From Paludibacteraceae bacterium (lineage in GTDB: Bacteria > Bacteroidota > Bacteroidia > Bacteroidales > Paludibacteraceae): a stretch of DNA of 64,000 nt. Positions 40,675 through 49,476 of this stretch are shown one piece after another. The position numbers were made by a program, and so were the translations under genes. Numbering within the stretch: the first letter of the stretch is position 1; each line of letters starts with the position of its first letter. Location: assembly GCA_017450435.1 (NCBI GenBank), contig JAFSTO010000039.1, positions 26,330 through 90,329 on the forward strand, in the 5' to 3' direction. The notes beneath the pieces are model-generated. The model had not been told where the DNA came from. It searched no databases and saw only the letters and a program-made list of their open reading frames with translations.

Positions 40675-40705
40675 TTTGAAGTGTGTATTTGTTTTTGTAA
40701 CTTTG
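40675..40705 (+). promoter_or_regulatory. Promoter of the NamZ-like gene
   Basis: TTTG (40675-40678), 19 bp, TAACTTTG (40698-40705). The TTTG itself is part of a second box, TACCTTTG at 40671-40678, so two overlapping promoters are possible. Confidence 0.6.
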
Positions 40706-40729
40706 TGCGGGATAGTATGCAATCCGTTT

Positions 40730-41983
40730 ATGTCCACCAAATGCCGCTTGTACATATTAGTTTTATTTCTTTTACAAACCTTATATGCCGTCTCGTCAGA
40801 AACAACATCCGTCGTTGTCGGAGCATCGCGTGAAGAGTTATACCTGCCGCTGTTAGTTCATTCCCGTGTGGCACTACTAAGCAACCATACCGGCGTGGCA
40901 GACGGCGAGCATACACTTGACCGGCTGATAAGATTGGGAATACAGGTAACTGCCGTATTCTCGCCGGAGCATGGTTTTCGCGGCACTGCCGGAGCCGGTA
41001 ATCATGTGGGAGACTCAACGGATGAGAAGACCGGAGTACCGATATTGTCACTTTACGACGGCAAAAGAAACTACCCGTCAGAATCTGCGATGCAACAATT
41101 TGACATACTGGTAGTGGATATTCAGGACGTAGGTCTAAGGTTCTATACGTATTACATTACCATGGTTCGCCTAATGCAGATATGCGCAGAATATGGCAAA
41201 CCGGTGGTGATTTTTGATCGTCCTAACCCCAATGGTCACTACGTAGATGGTCCTATACTCGACATGCGTTACAAATCAGGCGTCGGCTACCTGCCCATTC
41301 CTGTTGTACACGGCATGACGCTTGGCGAATTGGCACTGATGGTGAACGGCGAGCACTGGCTGGAACCGACAGGTGACAGTGCTTCATGGATGGAGTGCAA
41401 GCTGACCATTATCCCTTGTCAAGGTTACACCCATCAGACGCACTATCGCCTACCTATTGCGCCATCGCCCAATCTGCAAACGATGTTGGCTGTCTATCTC
41501 TACCCCTCCACTTGCTATTTCGAAGGCACCCCGGTCTCACTCGGCAGAGGAACAGACAAACCTTTTCTGCAATACGGACACCCGAAGATGCGATACCAAT
41601 GGAGCAAAGAAAGCAGAAAATCACTCGCAAAAAATAGCAAATCCCTGCCGCTTCGCCCGGCACGGTTCACTCCCCGCTCTTGTCCGGCGGCTCCGGCACC
41701 ACCGCAGCAGGACAGGCTGTGCAGAGGTACCGACTTGAGCCGTATAACGGAAGAACAGGCAATGAACATGGGGTTAGACCTCCGCTTCTTGATTGATGCC
41801 TATCAACAGATGCAGATCGACAACTGGTTCTTCTCGCCGTTCTTCGAAAAACTGATAGGCGTGGACTACGTGCGAAAAATGATTATCCAAGGTAAGTCCG
41901 CCGAAGAGATACGAGCTTGTTGGCAACAAGACGTTGAGCGGTTCAAAGTACAACGACGCCCGTATCTGTTATACCCCGAATAA
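40730..41983 (+). CDS. namZ: Exo-beta-N-acetylmuramidase NamZ-like (DUF1343)
   Basis: A 417-residue exported protein of the DUF1343 family, whose characterised members (NamZ, GH171) release terminal N-acetylmuramic acid from peptidoglycan fragments. A signal peptide (RLYILVLFLLQTLYAVSS) precedes SRVALLSNHTGVA, FSPEHGFRGTAGAG, DIQDVGLRFYTYY and IFDRPNPNGHYVDGP, all family blocks. The C-terminal part FTPRSCPAAPAP and CRGTDLS corresponds to the usual substrate-side segment, although a basic stretch before it (KESRKSLAKNSK) looks unusual. ATG 40730 is chosen because longer frames begin inside the promoter. The symporter gene follows by 20 bp. Confidence 0.82.
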   Translation: MSTKCRLYILVLFLLQTLYAVSSETTSVVVGASREELYLPLLVHSRVALLSNHTGVADGEHTLDRLIRLGIQVTAVFSPEHGFRGTAGAGNHVGDSTDEKTGVPILSLYDGKRNYPSESAMQQFDILVVDIQDVGLRFYTYYITMVRLMQICAEYGKPVVIFDRPNPNGHYVDGPILDMRYKSGVGYLPIPVVHGMTLGELALMVNGEHWLEPTGDSASWMECKLTIIPCQGYTHQTHYRLPIAPSPNLQTMLAVYLYPSTCYFEGTPVSLGRGTDKPFLQYGHPKMRYQWSKESRKSLAKNSKSLPLRPARFTPRSCPAAPAPPQQDRLCRGTDLSRITEEQAMNMGLDLRFLIDAYQQMQIDNWFFSPFFEKLIGVDYVRKMIIQGKSAEEIRACWQQDVERFKVQRRPYLLYPE

Positions 41984-42003
41984 ATCAATTAATCATTTAA
42001 CCA

Positions 42004-43467
42004 ATGTCTCCCATAATTATTCTCATCACTATCGTATGCTACTTTGCGTTGCTTCTCGGCATCAGTTGGGCAGCCGGCCGCAATGCAGACAACGCAGGTT
42101 TCTTCTCGGGCAACCGCCAGAGCAACTGGTTAGTTGTGGCAATGTCAACAATCGGTGCTCCCATCTCTGCCGTCACCTTCGTCAGCGTGCCGGGGATGGT
42201 GGCAAATGCCGGGATGAGTTATATGCAAATGACACTGGGGTTTCTTGTGGGACAGCTGATAATAGCGTACGTGCTTATCCCGCTTTACTACAAGATGAAC
42301 CTCACTTCGATATACGAATATCTGAATCAGCGGTTTGGCATAGCCTCGTACAAGACGGGGGCGTGGTTCTTCTTCCTTTCCAAATCGACCGGTGCCGCCG
42401 TGCGCCTGTTCATCGTGTGTGCCGTGTTGCAACTGCTTCTCTTCACTCCGATAGGCATACCGTTTTGGCTGAACGTGATTCTAACGATGTTAATTGTGTA
42501 TTTGTTTACGTTCAGAGGCGGCGTCAAGTCGGTAGTGTGGACCGACCTTCTGAAAACCGCATGCTTATTGCTGTCGGTCATTTTGAGTATAGTATTTATC
42601 CTGCGCTCCGGTGTTGGCTTTGATGACTATCAAGAGTCGCCTATGACGCGCATGTTTTTCTTTGATGACATCAACGACGGCCGCTACTTCTGGAAGCAGT
42701 TTCTTGCCGGTGTGTTCGTCGTAATAGCCACCACCGGTCTTGACCAGGACATGATGCAACGCACACTGTCGTGCAAGAACTATCGTGACTCGCAGAAAAA
42801 CCTCATCGCAGGTGCTACTGTGCAAACAGTGGTGATTTATCTATTCCTTGTTCTCGGCTATCTGCTATACGCCTTTGCCGCAAAAGAAGGTGTGTCCCTT
42901 GCCGGTGCTGACGGCACACCTCTCAAAGGCGACGATGTATTTCCCTTCCTTGCCACAGGCGAGTGGTTCCCGGCAGTGGTAGGAGTGCTGTTCGTAGTGG
43001 GATTCATTGCAGCGGGCAACTCCGCTGCAGGCTCGGCACTGACGGCACTGACAACATCGTTTACAATAGATATTCTCAACCGAACGACACTAAACGCGAA
43101 TGAAGAACAAATAAAGACCACACGCTCAATAGTGCACGTAGGCATGGCGGTGCTGATGGCGGCGATGATTTACGTGGTGTATCTGCTCAACGATGATTCT
43201 GTGATACAGACAGTGTATAAAGTAGCATCGTACACCTATGGTCCTCTACTCGGTCTGTTCTTCTTCGGCATTTTCACCAAACGTGCAGTACGCGACAGAT
43301 GGGTACCGCTGGTGTGCATCATAGCACCGCTGCTCACCTTCGCGCTCGACATAAACTCGCAAACATGGTTCAACGGATACACCTTCTCGCACGAAAGACT
43401 CATCTTCAACGCACTGTTTACCATTATAGGACTATGCTGCCTGATGAAAAAGAACAAACAGGCATAA
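42004..43467 (+). CDS. Sodium:solute symporter (SSS family)
   Basis: A 487-residue inner-membrane transporter with about 13 helices of the LeuT-fold SSS family. Family blocks include GRNADNAGFFSGNRQSNW (22-39), FVSVPGMVANAGMSY and TGLDQDMMQRTLSCKN, where the Gly-Leu-Asp-Gln motif is near the sodium site. It directly follows the NamZ-like gene. Since NamZ would release MurNAc outside, and MurNAc uptake by SSS-type carriers is known from memory in related oral Bacteroidetes, it may import MurNAc or a related sugar; that is inference. Confidence 0.83.
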   Translation: MSPIIILITIVCYFALLLGISWAAGRNADNAGFFSGNRQSNWLVVAMSTIGAPISAVTFVSVPGMVANAGMSYMQMTLGFLVGQLIIAYVLIPLYYKMNLTSIYEYLNQRFGIASYKTGAWFFFLSKSTGAAVRLFIVCAVLQLLLFTPIGIPFWLNVILTMLIVYLFTFRGGVKSVVWTDLLKTACLLLSVILSIVFILRSGVGFDDYQESPMTRMFFFDDINDGRYFWKQFLAGVFVVIATTGLDQDMMQRTLSCKNYRDSQKNLIAGATVQTVVIYLFLVLGYLLYAFAAKEGVSLAGADGTPLKGDDVFPFLATGEWFPAVVGVLFVVGFIAAGNSAAGSALTALTTSFTIDILNRTTLNANEEQIKTTRSIVHVGMAVLMAAMIYVVYLLNDDSVIQTVYKVASYTYGPLLGLFFFGIFTKRAVRDRWVPLVCIIAPLLTFALDINSQTWFNGYTFSHERLIFNALFTIIGLCCLMKKNKQA

Positions 43468-43600: not shown

Positions 43601-45886
43601 ATGAAAAGATTTTTCCTTCTTTACGTAATGATTCTATCGGCATTTGTCAGCCTCTATGCCCAGACGGTTGTTCCTGTCAGCGAGGGCGACAGCACTGCCG
43701 GTGGACAGACAGTTACCGTTACCTTGGTCGCATTCGGCGAGCAACTGGCTCAGATGCCTGTTCCGGCAGGCGAGCCTATCTATGCTCAGAACCTGCTCGG
43801 CTACGCCATGCGTTACAACCCTAACCTCGATTATGAGAAGTTCGACTTCATGTACGAGGGGATGCCGCATTTTGCTTTTCCTTTCCTCGGTTGGTCGGAG
43901 TCAAACATGTACTATTCTCCCTTCGAAGAAGGCTCTATTCTCAGTTCTGACATCACTCTATATGCAGCGTTCAACGCCTATGGTGAGAGTCTCGAACCTG
44001 AGTACAGCTACGAATGGAGCGCCAAGCCCGTATCGTCATACGTTGACTTGTTGACAAACATGAACAGCGGTGGCTTGCAGACCTACGTGGTTGCAGCTGA
44101 GGATAATGGTGTACTGTATTTTCCTGCAGCCCCGGAGGAGCAGACCTACGAAACAGTAACCTCTGACAGTTTGCCGGCAAACACCACCATACATGTTGTC
44201 AGCGACCAAGTTGCCGCCAGTAGCGTGGCAACAGGCATGAGCGAGGACGGCAGTCTGTCAGGCGTGGACATCAGTAGAATAGCTGTTTTCAACTTTGAGC
44301 CGCACTATAGTGGCGAGGCTACTCAAGTAGGCTTGCCTACGGGCGACAGCATCTACCTGCCTACCGGCTTCCACCTGCAGGACTTCAACAACAAAGGTCT
44401 GTTTATGCCGACACTGAGCGAGGACGGTATGCGCTATCAACTTGTTTCAACAACCGAAGGTTACGACTTCTTCGACGAGAGTCTGTTGTGGCAAGTGGCG
44501 ATGAACAACAATGTGCCAATGCTTACGTTCAACGGCATGCAGATACCGCTAACGTTAGTCTATGCTCCTCAGGCACCGTATTTCTTCGCAGCAAGCACAA
44601 TGGACGCCACCGGCGCGCCTGTGACGGAGTACGACCCTACCAAACTGCGCCTATACCGCCTGACAGAAAGCGAGGTAAAAAACACGACCGAACCGCGAAT
44701 TTTCGCAGTGTTTGACTACAACACCGTCAACATCTCCATGAACCAAAACGACCTGCAGCATGGCATGTTCGAACCTGACGTTGACTGGATGGACATGATG
44801 ATGCAATCCGACTCTACATATTCCGACATTCCCGGTTTCACGTGGGGGGACGTGGTGGAAGACTCTACCGCTATCGGTCTCGACGGCGCACCTGAAACGA
44901 CAAGCATTGACCTCTTCTTGTTGGAAGGTTATGCGATGCAAGTACGTGTTGTCTATGAAGAGCCGGACAAGTACCGCGTACACTGGTTCTCATCTGATAG
45001 TGCATACAACGACATCTACACCAACCCGCTGCTCATCCGTCCTACGGAAGACATGATGCTGCAGATGGTCATCGAGCCTTATACTCCGGTCATCATCATC
45101 GCCGGCGACACTATTAAGTTGAGCGCCGATACTACAGAGGTTATCAACCTCACCGAGGACGGCTCTATAACCTACGACCTCACTACCAACACCATCACTC
45201 TTGACAGCGCAGCCGTAACCGGCACCGGTATCAGTTTCGACCAGCCCGAGTTCACTCTTGCCGTGGAGAACAACTCCACAATAGCTGTTGATGAGGAGTA
45301 TGGTATCAAGTTCGATGGCGAGTCACTCACCCTGCAAACAGCAGACAGCGTTATGCTGACCGTTCAGGCACCGCAGCCGCTTGTGGGTAATGGCGGCAAC
45401 CTGTATATAGAAGGTAACTTCATCTTCTCTTCGGTTGAATTCCGTCTCACGGCAGGTCAGGCAGCAGCTCACCGCAGCAAGATCCGTCGGATGCCGTCAG
45501 ACGCCACACCGCTCGTTCACCCCGCTGTCAGCGGTTTCGCTAACGTAGAGCTGGCTGACGGCATTGAGTTGCAAGAGGTTTATTACACCGACGAGGCCGG
45601 CAACACCGTGCCCGGCGACCCCACCAAGACACATTACCACGCAGCCGAAGCCGCATATGGTGAGGTGGATGTGGACACGCAGTCGTTCACTCCCGCTACC
45701 TCGCTCGTCTTCGCCGACTCGAACTTCTACACCGACTATATCGACGGTAAGATAGTTATTGTCTCCGGCGTGGAGAACACCACCAATAATGACGCTATAC
45801 GAGTAAGCAAAGTGGTAGAAAACGGCAACGTACTAATCATCCGTGGCGACACTACATACAACGTACTCGGCACTGTGGTAAGATAA
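43601..45886 (+). CDS. Large exported surface protein with InlB-like N-domain and T9SS-like C-terminal motif
   Basis: A 761-residue exported protein of unknown function. The signal peptide (MKRFFLLYVMILSAFVSLYA) is followed by an InlB/Listeria-Bacteroides-type repeat (LVAFGEQLAQMPVPAGEPIY ... DITLYAAF). A long, beta-rich region rich in Thr/Asp/Glu follows with no recognised enzyme motifs. The C-terminus (AIRVSKVVENGNVLIIRGDT then TYNVLGTVVR) resembles the NGxxxIIRxxxxYxxxG motif of T9SS-type sorting tails in related genomes. It is the first gene of a run with 22 bp to the next. The fixed-period array at 43470 lies just upstream. Confidence 0.65.
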   Translation: MKRFFLLYVMILSAFVSLYAQTVVPVSEGDSTAGGQTVTVTLVAFGEQLAQMPVPAGEPIYAQNLLGYAMRYNPNLDYEKFDFMYEGMPHFAFPFLGWSESNMYYSPFEEGSILSSDITLYAAFNAYGESLEPEYSYEWSAKPVSSYVDLLTNMNSGGLQTYVVAAEDNGVLYFPAAPEEQTYETVTSDSLPANTTIHVVSDQVAASSVATGMSEDGSLSGVDISRIAVFNFEPHYSGEATQVGLPTGDSIYLPTGFHLQDFNNKGLFMPTLSEDGMRYQLVSTTEGYDFFDESLLWQVAMNNNVPMLTFNGMQIPLTLVYAPQAPYFFAASTMDATGAPVTEYDPTKLRLYRLTESEVKNTTEPRIFAVFDYNTVNISMNQNDLQHGMFEPDVDWMDMMMQSDSTYSDIPGFTWGDVVEDSTAIGLDGAPETTSIDLFLLEGYAMQVRVVYEEPDKYRVHWFSSDSAYNDIYTNPLLIRPTEDMMLQMVIEPYTPVIIIAGDTIKLSADTTEVINLTEDGSITYDLTTNTITLDSAAVTGTGISFDQPEFTLAVENNSTIAVDEEYGIKFDGESLTLQTADSVMLTVQAPQPLVGNGGNLYIEGNFIFSSVEFRLTAGQAAAHRSKIRRMPSDATPLVHPAVSGFANVELADGIELQEVYYTDEAGNTVPGDPTKTHYHAAEAAYGEVDVDTQSFTPATSLVFADSNFYTDYIDGKIVIVSGVENTTNNDAIRVSKVVENGNVLIIRGDTTYNVLGTVVR

Positions 45887-45908: not shown

Positions 45909-47099
45909 GTGAAACAGATAAGAAACGCTATTTTGATAGTATTCTGTACGCTACTCTCCTGCGCCTTGTTGGCGCAGGAGAGTGAGCATATTTCCGTAGC
46001 AGAGCGCAACGCTCAACAGGGATTCAACGACACTATTGACCGCCTTGCTCCCGATTTCGTTCTCGTATCCCTCTGTATCGCCGACCCTACCGATTGGCAC
46101 GACGATGTATTGGGCACAACGGGACACGCTTTTCTGCGGCTGCAGTGCCCCGTGTTCGGACTTGACTATTGTTTCTCATACGAAGGCGAGAATGTAAACG
46201 ACAATCTCTATCGCTACCTTTCCGGTGACACCAAGATGGGAATGTTCGCCGTCCCCACCGACGAGTACATAGAGGACTATCGCCACTGGAACCGCTCGGT
46301 GCACGAATACCGCTTGCAGCTCCCGCCGGAGGCGGAGCAACGACTATGGGAGATAATGGACAACCACCTGACAAGCGGCATCACACTGCGGCAAGACTTG
46401 AACAAATACGGCTGTGCCATCACCGCGGTGCGCTACGTCAAGAGAGCTCTCAACGGAACGCCTATCATCTACGCCCCGAGCGACTTCGACCACCTCACAC
46501 GTCGCGAGATAGGCTATCGCACCCTTGCCAACCACCCGTGGTTGCGCCTTGGCAGCATGATCTTCACCGACAGCCGATACGACGAAGAGTGTTCGGTTGA
46601 CGAGAAACTGATTGTGCCGGCCGACCTGGCTATCGTTTGGCAAAATGCCACCGTGAAAGGCGAAGTGTTTGCTACCTACATAGGCGACCTCGTGACAGGG
46701 GAGACACCGAACGATAGCCGTCCGTGGTTCACACCTATACTGCTGGCCATAATACTGCTACTCATTAGCATCATCTTCTTCTTCACAGACTATCCATACT
46801 GGAGCTATATCATGCTGACAGCACAGACTATTATTGGTGTGGTTTTGATATACCTATGGATTGTAATGGCAAACTTCGGTTCCTCCGCCTACCTGCTACT
46901 CGCCTTGTTCAATCCTCTGCCACTGATAGCGTGGAAATGGCGCAAATACTGGGCATTGGCATACGCTGCTGTACTGCTCATAGGTACGGTGGTATTAGCA
47001 TTAATGCCGCACATGATTATTGACCCCGCAATACTTGTATTATCATTTTCATATATAATAATCTACATAAAAGAAGGTTTACCGCTTGTTAGACGATGA
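45909..47099 (+). CDS. Lnb/DUF4105-like exported protein with multi-helix C-terminus
   Basis: A 396-residue exported protein. A signal peptide (ending ALLAQE, near 22-24) is followed by a DUF4105/Lnb-type papain-like domain: His73 in LGTTGHAFLRLQ and Cys169 in NKYGCAITAVRY are in the expected places for the catalytic pair. About five membrane helices (residues 250-390) follow, ending near the C-terminus. In Enterococcus the related Lnb transfers an acyl chain during lipoprotein modification; here that role is only an analogy. GTG 45909 starts 22 bp after the previous gene, and the stop overlaps the condensation gene by ATGA. Confidence 0.7.
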   Translation: MKQIRNAILIVFCTLLSCALLAQESEHISVAERNAQQGFNDTIDRLAPDFVLVSLCIADPTDWHDDVLGTTGHAFLRLQCPVFGLDYCFSYEGENVNDNLYRYLSGDTKMGMFAVPTDEYIEDYRHWNRSVHEYRLQLPPEAEQRLWEIMDNHLTSGITLRQDLNKYGCAITAVRYVKRALNGTPIIYAPSDFDHLTRREIGYRTLANHPWLRLGSMIFTDSRYDEECSVDEKLIVPADLAIVWQNATVKGEVFATYIGDLVTGETPNDSRPWFTPILLAIILLLISIIFFFTDYPYWSYIMLTAQTIIGVVLIYLWIVMANFGSSAYLLLALFNPLPLIAWKWRKYWALAYAAVLLIGTVVLALMPHMIIDPAILVLSFSYIIIYIKEGLPLVRR

Positions 47100-48226
47100 A
47101 AACAGCCGACACACGTTCATATCCGTTGTTACCTTATTCGCAATTGGTGTGGGACCTGATGCAATCAGATCCTCATATTTATAATTTCGACTTTACACTT
47201 AGAGTAAAGAACGCAACTGCAGATATTGAAAAACTGAAACAGGCTTTTCGTACTGCGCTGAGCAATCACCCTGTTCTTTCTATGGTAATAGATGCCGACG
47301 GCAAACAATCGTACATGCCGACAGAGGACATCCTACATGGTCAGTTTCATTCAATCAGGTTTGAGGATAACGACAATTATACAGATATTAACGTCCATTA
47401 TAACCGTATATTGGGCGATAGCGTGAGCGGCAACATATTTGTGGAAGATGTCTTTAGGGCATACAACAGTTTAGCACTTGAGCAAGACCACTATATCGAC
47501 TATCTTGAGTGGCTGGAGAAATACAAACAATCATCAGCATACTCTCAACATCGTCAATGGCTTGAGAAGGAGTTCGGCGTTGCTTGTCCCGTTCATCCTC
47601 AGCCGGACCTTCCCCTGACTGCCGGCGTAAAAGCTATCGAGGGTGTTATACATGACGATTTCACAACGCTCCGTGAGCGACTTCAAGCCGTGTCAGAAAG
47701 ACATATCGTTTCCCTCTCCGCCCTATTCTCTCTTGCCGCAGCAATGGCAATCATGCAGTATAACGGCACCGACATGGCGGCACTGACATGGGCATACGAG
47801 GGTAGAGAACAACCAATGGAACAACATGTTTTCGGCAGCCTGCACCGCGATATTCCCATACTGCTGAAGGCTGACACGGACAAGACAGCACTATTCAAGC
47901 AGATACGCACTCAGATGAGACAAGGTATAGCACATAGTTTATACCCCTACACCCTGACCAAACCTTTCACCGAAAGGTGGAACTACGCTGTCAACGTGCT
48001 GTATTACAATTCAAACAACGATTTTCTCAGCATAGCTCCGTTTGAAGCAGAGTTGATTATTCCCGACACTGAACATCCGGCTTACTCACTGTTAGATATG
48101 GAAATATACGACAGTGGCGATACATTAGCGCTGCTTTACCGCTATAGCGCCACACACTACAATGAGCAAAGTATGATGCGGTTTGCCGGATTGGTAAGAC
48201 AGAACTTAGAATGGCTGACCGAATAA
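47096..48226 (+). CDS. Stand-alone condensation-domain protein, HHxxxD histidines absent
   Basis: A 376-residue protein with the fold of an NRPS condensation/acyltransferase domain without carrier or adenylation domains. The segment aligning with HHxxxDG reads NRILGD (103-108): both His are replaced, Asp108 is kept, and a His sits two residues before (H101). The latter-half blocks are present: GREQPMEQHVFGSLHRDIP (approximately 230-250) and the YAVNVLYYN strand. No signal peptide, so cytoplasmic. It may act on acyl-CoA/acyl-carrier substrates with altered chemistry, or serve as a non-catalytic partner. It overlaps the upstream gene (4 bp) and the downstream decarboxylase-like gene (16 bp). 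Confidence 0.7.
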   Translation: MKTADTRSYPLLPYSQLVWDLMQSDPHIYNFDFTLRVKNATADIEKLKQAFRTALSNHPVLSMVIDADGKQSYMPTEDILHGQFHSIRFEDNDNYTDINVHYNRILGDSVSGNIFVEDVFRAYNSLALEQDHYIDYLEWLEKYKQSSAYSQHRQWLEKEFGVACPVHPQPDLPLTAGVKAIEGVIHDDFTTLRERLQAVSERHIVSLSALFSLAAAMAIMQYNGTDMAALTWAYEGREQPMEQHVFGSLHRDIPILLKADTDKTALFKQIRTQMRQGIAHSLYPYTLTKPFTERWNYAVNVLYYNSNNDFLSIAPFEAELIIPDTEHPAYSLLDMEIYDSGDTLALLYRYSATHYNEQSMMRFAGLVRQNLEWLTE

Positions 48227-49476
48227 ATAAACACATGATACCCCAAGGAAGTGAGACATATCGGCTATGGTATATGCTTGAGCACGACGCTGCGTTGCAC
48301 CGTATGATGCTGCGTTCTCTTCAGTCGGCGGCAGAGCATAACCCCGACACAACGACTAACCCCGTGCGAACATTAGACGACCTATACCGGTTCCTTGACA
48401 CATTCATCACCTCAATGCCGTGGCAGGCTGTGGAACGGTTCAGCGGGAAGACCAACGCCGAAGCATCACTCTTTCGACGCATTGACCAGGCGATGGGATA
48501 CTTCTATTATCTGTTCGACCAACCGCTTGACGAACTGAAAGACAAGGGCTACGTCTATCCGTCACTGCAATATGAGCCACGGATTGCGCAGTGGATAGTG
48601 CAATATAATTCGATGTGGGGTTTGTATCTGAGTGACGAAAACAGCTGGAACGCCGAACACCTGCAGTTAGTGTCAGCCGACCCGTTGTTCGGCTTGCAAA
48701 ACGGCTGGTACGAGTCCCCTGATAACTGGCATTCATGGAACGACTTTTTTTCCCGACGATTAGCCACGCCTCAAGTGCGCCCGATAGCCGACTCTTGCTT
48801 GGTTTCGCCATGCGACGGCAAACAGATGCCTTGGTTGCAGATTGACGAGAACGGCTTTCTCATAACCGACGATGCCCAAGGGCTGCAGGTCAAGACCTCT
48901 ACCGTGTTTGAGGTCAACAAGCTGTTGCTTAGCGAACACAAAGACGTCTTCAATGGTGGCGTGATGACGCACATAGTGCTTGACATGCACAACTACCACC
49001 ATTTTCACAGCCCTGTGGACGGAACGATTGTAGAAATCAACAACATCATTGAGTATAAGGCACTGAGCGGCGGACATATTATCCGGGACCAAGAGCAACA
49101 CCGCTACCGTTATGAACATGAGAAAACGGACTGCTTGGATTATCAACTGCACGAGCCAAGGAAAGTGTTTATCATCAAAACCGATGATGACCGATACGTG
49201 GCACTGGTGGCGGTGACTGTAGCACAAGTGGGAAAGATAAATCAAGCCGACAATATTTATGTAGGCTGCCGCGTAAGCCGAGGCACCGACCTCGGTCATT
49301 TCCTATGCGGCAGTGATGTGTTGCTACTGATATCCAAGGAGAAAACGATGCCTACCCCCAGTCTGCCATCGCAAAACGCAAAGGACATCAAACCCATCAC
49401 AATACCCGAGACCTCACATTTCTTAAAGTCCCCCACCCCCGCGTCCCCCGTTCTCGTAGGCCAATCAATGCTGTAA
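48211..49476 (+). CDS. Pyruvoyl decarboxylase of the phosphatidylserine-decarboxylase superfamily
   Basis: A 421-residue protein with the PSD catalytic layout: WNDFFSRRL (176-184), Asp202 in SPCDGK, His266 in HHFHSPVDGT and Ser368 in the cleavage motif CGSD (366-369), where the usual LGST becomes CGSD; self-cleavage at Gly367-Ser368 would leave a pyruvoyl prosthetic group. A 170-residue N-terminal extension (FLDTFITSMPW, NSMWGLYLSD) resembles the PSDC-type domain of noncanonical members that decarboxylate amino acids such as tryptophan. A 45-residue Pro-rich tail follows. It is thus more likely an amino-acid or special lipid decarboxylase than the housekeeping PSD. ATG 48211 or 48235 may be used. 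Confidence 0.75.
   Translation: MADRINKHMIPQGSETYRLWYMLEHDAALHRMMLRSLQSAAEHNPDTTTNPVRTLDDLYRFLDTFITSMPWQAVERFSGKTNAEASLFRRIDQAMGYFYYLFDQPLDELKDKGYVYPSLQYEPRIAQWIVQYNSMWGLYLSDENSWNAEHLQLVSADPLFGLQNGWYESPDNWHSWNDFFSRRLATPQVRPIADSCLVSPCDGKQMPWLQIDENGFLITDDAQGLQVKTSTVFEVNKLLLSEHKDVFNGGVMTHIVLDMHNYHHFHSPVDGTIVEINNIIEYKALSGGHIIRDQEQHRYRYEHEKTDCLDYQLHEPRKVFIIKTDDDRYVALVAVTVAQVGKINQADNIYVGCRVSRGTDLGHFLCGSDVLLLISKEKTMPTPSLPSQNAKDIKPITIPETSHFLKSPTPASPVLVGQSML

Follow-up and report, generated by a model that had tools for sequence, protein, structure and literature searches.

The 64,000-nucleotide stretch of contig JAFSTO010000039.1 of a Paludibacteraceae bacterium (hereafter, the window) contains three consecutive genes that encode, respectively, an Lnb-like protein, a free-standing protein of the condensation-domain family (hereafter, C protein) and a PsiD-like decarboxylase of the phosphatidylserine decarboxylase (PSD) superfamily (Table 1). 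As noted in the original prediction, which was made from the nucleotide sequence of the window, the genes overlap, by 4 bases (Lnb-like and C) and 16 bases (C and PSD), and each of the three identities assigned there is borne out by a Pfam match. All three reading frames are intact. In comparisons with the nearest relatives, loci L056 and L057, the proportion of nonsynonymous differences (pN, 0.21-0.31) is far below that of synonymous differences (pS, 0.68-0.86, close to or at saturation), so that the proteins of the trio appear to be maintained. Because the downstream gene is on the opposite strand, the gene set stops after the PSD gene, and the list of open reading frames (ORFs) of the window includes no linked genes for an acyl carrier protein (ACP), a ligase or Fab proteins 3' of it. 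The upstream gene ends 22 bases before the start of the Lnb-like gene and is possibly co-transcribed with the trio.

Table 1 Genes of the cluster locus and its upstream neighbour in the window
Gene product	Position	Strand	Start codon	Length (aa)	Match or feature
Secreted-looking protein, upstream	43601-45886	+		761	Shared C-terminal tail
Lnb-like protein	45909-47099	+	GTG	396	Pfam Lnb_N
C protein, free-standing, condensation-domain family	47096-48226	+	ATG	376	Pfam Condensation
PSD-superfamily, PsiD-like decarboxylase	48211-49476	+	ATG	421	Pfam PS_Dcarbxylase

The three genes form a conserved unit. When 150 genomes of the family Paludibacteraceae were searched with the C and PSD proteins, nine contained a match to C at E<=0.001, of which five were strong (E<=8e-80) and the others 1.9e-8 or worse, a line that was set after the gap had been seen; PSD matches were found in exactly the same five genomes. 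If the genomes were independent, such co-occurrence would arise by chance about once in 6e8, but this condition does not hold, four of the five being members of a single genus. With the PSD alignment as query, named genomes yielded 46 loci, mostly titled Paludibacteraceae or uncultured Bacteroidales, and 40 of these encode the Lnb-like, C and PSD proteins together. Among the remaining six, two (L067 and L101) start at or inside the PSD gene, and four, titled Clostridiales (L064), Duodenibacillus (L087 and L089) and Parasutterella (L092), carry the PSD gene alone. The two surveys overlap, because L059, L060, L094 and L097 are contigs of the family genomes G008, G138, G142 and G050. In the 37 loci with unfused genes, the gap between C and PSD ranges from -143 to +73, with start codons called mechanically; in three close relatives (L093, L094 and L097), the two proteins are fused in a single ORF of 705-707 aa, and the similarity of these loci suggests one fusion event.

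At E<=1e-8, the C profile matched one genome, the window's own, among 395 genomes of the phylum, a sample without the other known carriers. Outside this lineage, PSD-like genes are solitary: none of 20 stretches around them, some ended by contig ends, contained Lnb, C or ACP neighbours. These solitary genes would favour the trio being chance neighbours with no common pathway, an explanation that we consider exceedingly improbable and, for practical purposes, ruled out by the conserved trio in 40 of 46 loci, the recurring tight spacing, the identical presence in five of 150 genomes and the fusion. The shared pathway envisaged in the original prediction is thus strongly supported, and the comparison of gene order shows that the genes, rather than being rarely adjacent in other genomes, stand together across the lineage.

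In the relatives, the trio is part of a larger cluster. Gene content was counted in the 34 loci of the 46 that extend 2.7 kb or more upstream and 7 kb or more downstream of PSD (hereafter, full-context loci). Here, as for the 46 loci and the 20 stretches from outside the lineage, families were assigned by phmmer with few references, so that some apparent absences may be genes that escaped detection. In the 30 full-context loci with C, the Lnb-like, PSD and ACP genes are all present without exception (30/30 each), accompanied by DUF3737 (25), an acyl-AMP ligase (23), FabF (17), FabG (16), an oxidoreductase similar to phytoene desaturase and carotenoid isomerase (7), hot-dog dehydratases (4) and FabD (2). 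No literature on DUF3737 was found. The one cluster ligase tested (L015) is nearest to the long-chain fatty acid type (192 bits; the amino acid adenylation model gives 115), and the one FabG tested (L068) is nearest to the flexirubin protein FlxB, under the cut-off of that model. The earlier statement that no adenylation or carrier domain is present hence applies to the window locus but does not extend to the relatives. Such genes were likely lost at the window locus, because both nearest relatives have linked ACP and FabF, together with FabG and the oxidoreductase in L056 and with the ligase in L057. Elsewhere in the window genome, a DUF3737 gene lies on contig C13 without cluster neighbours, and contig C11 carries an operon of FabF, two dehydratases, a CrtISO-like oxidoreductase and FabG, the relation of which to the cluster is uncertain (50% identity for FabF and 29% for the oxidoreductase). 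Separately, contigs C24 (L165) and C71 (L164) of genome G000 encode ammonia-lyase-like proteins, ketosynthases and ACPs in an arrangement that, by eye, resembles aryl polyene clusters.

The C protein of the window belongs to the condensation family (87.5 bits), but its active-site motif is altered. At the position of HHxxxDG, it reads NRILGDS (residues 103-109). Across 41 family members, the second histidine is absent without exception, being replaced by arginine in 40 and by valine in one (L072), whereas the motif aspartate is kept in all 41; the first position is N in 21 members, S in 18, D in one and H in one, and the last is G in 27 and A in 7. In this register, the profile alignment to tyrocidine synthetase 3 runs through the motif without gaps, and so do those to four condensation domains of the non-ribosomal peptide synthetase (NRPS) type from the same bacterial family (the fourth in the first block only). 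Other positions of the condensation-domain motifs (R237, H280 and P284) are retained. In addition, in another core motif, His250 and Asp252 are invariant across the 41 proteins, with Arg or Lys between them; the corresponding three positions of the aligned NRPS domains are V, one of N, K or H, and T. That His250 is a relocated base would be a guess. An NRPS fragment was rejected as an identity for this protein, given that the weak, NRPS-type C matches in the family (G000, G040, G041, G123 and G134), four of which are in register with the profile, keep HHxxxDG in 5/5 cases.

The C protein is also the fast-diverging member of the cluster. In 134 pairs of loci with a PSD catalytic part more than 75% identical, mean identity is 0.79 in that part, a value raised by the choice of pairs on PSD identity, and 0.81 in the PSD N-terminal part, which was not used in the choice, compared with 0.47 and 0.57 in the two halves of C. 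A side observation concerns the fused loci. When L094 (3594-6463) is compared with L097 (7941-10939) and L093 (7857-10855), five neighbouring genes are 93-100% identical, but between a point inside the Lnb-like gene and approximately residue 110 of the C part, identity in successive segments drops, mostly to 25-60% (one segment, a gap, is at 0, and some reach 72-75%). The pattern looks like the exchange of one block spanning the Lnb-like and C genes.

The PSD-superfamily protein of the window (PS_Dcarbxylase, 94.4 bits) shows no signal peptide by eye. Its Gly-Ser cleavage site reads CGSD, compared to GGSD in most relatives. In the PSD alignment A6 (37 of the 43 unfused PSD matches plus the window; the fused proteins of L093, L094 and L097 were excluded from A6 and from alignment A5), G367, S368, H263 and H266 are invariant and D202 is nearly so; we take G367/S368 to be the cleavage site and Asp202, His263 and His266 to be the catalytic residues of PSD. 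When the family profile was compared to the PDB, the best match was to L-tryptophan decarboxylases of the PsiD type (8zia and 8x4q; 1e-20), which belong to the PSD superfamily, although the match spans only about 220 profile positions. A PsiD-like protein came next, at 4.7e-15, ahead of the solved PSDs at 1.8e-12. The genome encodes another, housekeeping-type PSD on contig C45 (135.8 bits, 240-aa ORF), so the decarboxylase of the trio is not the sole housekeeping PSD, the other finding that would have undermined the shared pathway.

Among 11 stand-alone PSD-like relatives with neighbours read, two, L142 (6949-9132) and L144 (7965-12142), adjoin GadC-type antiporters, one a full-length copy at 597 bits (cut-off 650) and the other ended by the contig; a distant PSD of the same kind in L143 has no adjoining antiporter. 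These two loci possibly represent a pair of a pyruvoyl amino acid decarboxylase and its antiporter. At least 5 of the 11 (L133, L134, L135, L137 and L138, from other Bacteroidales) have lipoprotein-like N-terminal signals, which suggests a secreted PSD-like decarboxylase; the cluster PSD proteins that we looked at are without such signals. The proximity of the profile to L-tryptophan decarboxylases, together with the GadC neighbours, makes an amino acid a likelier substrate of the cluster enzyme than a phospholipid.

The Lnb-like protein narrowly exceeds the cut-off of Lnb_N (23.8 bits against 22.2), a domain of the permuted NlpC/P60 type, and remains under that of 5TMH_Lnb (14.1 bits); by eye, it has a signal-peptide-like N-terminus and C-terminal hydrophobic stretches. 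It is not a true Lnb, scoring 65.6 bits against the cut-off of 550 in NCBIfam; the best match in the genome is on contig C56 (235.9 bits), and no protein of this genome passes the cut-off. The available text of PMC12994826 identifies DUF4105 with Lnb, which is the Bacteroides lipoprotein N-acyltransferase, and describes a His/Cys pair in permuted NlpC/P60 proteins including DUF4105/Lnb. Like Lnb, the cluster protein combines the Lnb_N domain with an invariant histidine and cysteine, His73 and Cys169 in the 35 aligned proteins (alignment A7, 34 of the 44 Lnb matches plus the window). It differs in being encoded in a biosynthetic cluster, and many relatives are shorter at the C-terminus. The protein is a distant paralogue of Lnb. 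No relatives of this family were detected in the PDB at E<=1. Four loci encode a second Lnb-like protein, in tandem in L061 and L072, and further downstream, by the ACP gene, in L079 and L084.

Three described systems bear on the function of this cluster. In the fatty acid amide (FAA, or Oaa) clusters, exemplified by OaaA-OaaACP-OaaC of Coprococcus eutactus and found in gut Clostridia, a fatty acid ligase and an ACP operate with a C protein that is likewise free-standing and that links the acyl chain with a free amine (preprint PMC13142362, in the part available). The clusters of our relatives, although not the window locus, similarly encode a free-standing ligase, ACP and C together, and the motif aspartate is kept in both cases, with a varying residue after it (mostly G, A or S). 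However, the FAA motif is (D/H)HxxxD(S/A/G), with the second histidine kept in >99% of 127 FAA C proteins (same source), whereas it is absent in all 41 proteins here, so we do not file the cluster as a member of FAA, only as one that possibly works alike. Beyond the FAA/Oaa layout, the present clusters encode a dedicated pyruvoyl decarboxylase, DUF3737 and the Lnb-like protein, in many cases along with Fab proteins; C is fused to the decarboxylase in three loci, and the hosts are Bacteroidales. The X domain of glycopeptide NRPSs, a C-type domain that recruits P450s (PMC11546977, a review, available text), resembles the C protein in having arginine at the position of the second histidine. Its motif is given as HRxxxDD (HRxxxDG in a figure legend), compared with G or A after the aspartate in 34 of our 41 proteins, and it lies inside an NRPS, by P450s, whereas the C protein is free-standing beside a decarboxylase, with recruitment putative. 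Finally, in vicenistatin biosynthesis, VinO decarboxylates an ACP-bound amino acid, 3-methylaspartyl-ACP (PMC11284099, available part). VinN-VinL-VinO likewise combines an adenylating enzyme, a stand-alone ACP and a decarboxylase in a polyketide-type cluster, but VinO is pyridoxal phosphate-dependent, its adenylating partner takes an amino acid as substrate, and no C protein is named in that part of the paper. These precedents together lead to two main readings, in which the C protein is either an acyl-amine synthase or a recruiter. The earlier remark that no described system was recognised therefore needs amending with respect to the FAA/Oaa layout but stands for the combination as such: we found no description of it in titles and abstract openings among the matches listed, in a search covering few subscription journals, and a query on PSD, condensation domain and Bacteroid returned nothing on topic.

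Our preferred reading, to which we assign a probability of about 0.45, is that the trio forms the conserved first part of a Paludibacteraceae-type biosynthetic cluster for an acylated amine, which would be made in an FAA-like manner and completed in the envelope. Gene identities, linkage, the fusion and the motif changes are observed. From these we infer a scheme, with respect to every substrate, the amide bond, cellular location and order of steps, in which the acyl-AMP ligase and/or FabF, FabG and the dehydratase would load a fatty or polyene-like acyl chain on the dedicated ACP, while the cytosolic PsiD-like pyruvoyl enzyme would generate an amine by decarboxylating an amino acid. Coupled and sometimes fused to the decarboxylase, the free-standing C protein would dock the acyl-ACP and pass the chain to the amine as in FAA/Oaa, only without the usual histidine. 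The Lnb-like papain-fold enzyme would then act on the periplasmic side, with either the product or its acyl chain as substrate. Of the two products originally predicted, an N-acyl amine stays the best reading; the other, a modified phospholipid head group, ranks below it in likelihood given the PSD profile matches and the GadC neighbours. It is conceivable, if doubtful, that the C-fold protein, devoid of the second histidine, and the pyruvoyl decarboxylase form a single complex that couples decarboxylation with acyl transfer or ACP docking. Such a pairing, which would be new, could act as an amide synthase whose base has been relocated, or else as a decarboxylase that depends on a carrier and brings its own recruiter.

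Several observations weigh against the acylated amine. Bond formation by the C protein, expected from its family membership, cannot be assumed when the histidine kept in nearly all FAA proteins is missing throughout. The distribution of the acyl-supply genes is not in step with the phylogeny of C (8 changes on both of the quick trees used; 186/500 shuffles on the C tree were as low), which speaks against a simple version in which C selects the supplied chain, and 7 of the 30 full-context relatives are without a ligase by the families used. In the window genome, no cluster-type ACP was found, the matches, at 26-48 bits, being the ACPs of two aryl-polyene-like clusters or the FabF-linked ACP located upstream in the window; nor is there a linked ligase, the best pieces being 37-47% identical and on other contigs. 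Both activities would accordingly have to come from unlinked genes.

The arginine that replaces the second histidine in 40 of 41 proteins is also what makes a recruiter worth considering, in which C, not a condensation catalyst, would dock a carrier-bound substrate for the decarboxylase and decarboxylation would occur on the ACP, the amine-bearing acyl-ACP being then extended or released. The X domain shares this arginine (PMC11546977, available text), VinO acts after thioester formation (PMC11284099, available part), ACP is linked in all 30 full-context loci with C and FabF in 17, and the fusion in three loci is suggestive. Nevertheless, the linked ligase that was tested looks like a fatty acid rather than an amino acid enzyme, and the other condensation motif positions are kept. 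Furthermore, mutation of the second histidine does not always abolish activity (PMC11546977, available text). X-type recruiters are not known to us outside NRPSs. On balance, a recruiter seems unlikely. Action of the PSD-like enzyme on a phospholipid or serine lipid, with the head group acylated by C and the product remodelled by the Lnb-like protein, would be in keeping with the PSD superfamily, the Lnb-type fold known for lipid-using acyltransferases, and the occurrence in the relatives of Fab and ACP genes and a fatty acid ligase; we consider it improbable because the nearest solved relatives are L-tryptophan decarboxylases, GadC-type antiporters lie beside L142 and L144, and the genome has another PSD. 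It also appears quite unlikely that the trio of the window genome is a remnant of the larger cluster and the full product is no longer made. The absence of linked ACP, ligase and Fab genes, some of which L056 and L057 have, the missing cluster-type ACP, the isolated DUF3737 gene and the Fab-type operon of uncertain relation would fit such a remnant, but the frames are intact, the active-site residues of the PSD and Lnb-like proteins are present, the differences from L056 and L057 look constrained, and an unlinked ACP could serve.

If the acylated-amine reading is correct, the cluster is a Bacteroidales counterpart of the FAA clusters that makes its own amine. Many of the carrier genomes have records that name rumen or gut sources, and lipids of FAA clusters from gut Clostridia act on host receptors (PMC13142362, preprint, available part). 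The family also provides a natural, sequence-defined test of the debated need for the second histidine in condensation domains, and it is a candidate for the coupling of a C-fold protein with a decarboxylase.

Additional features were observed in the vicinity of these clusters. Genes for AAA-type ATPase-like proteins are placed variably among the cluster genes in L056, L057, L059, L060, L091 and others (by eye), and some loci of that group also have a 213-aa protein inserted between cluster genes. Just 5' of the cluster, the window and 12 of the 37 relative loci examined (L068, L070, L071, L074-L077, L080, L081, L095, L096 and L099) encode secreted-looking proteins of 761 to 2453 aa, some incomplete, that matched no family over its cut-off and share a C-terminal tail of the approximate form VLI..IIR....Y...G..V, which resembles secretion-sorting tails. 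Further upstream in the window (40676-43467), a NamZ-type exo-N-acetylmuramidase adjoins a sodium:solute symporter (both by Pfam), a possible pair for the salvage of peptidoglycan sugars.

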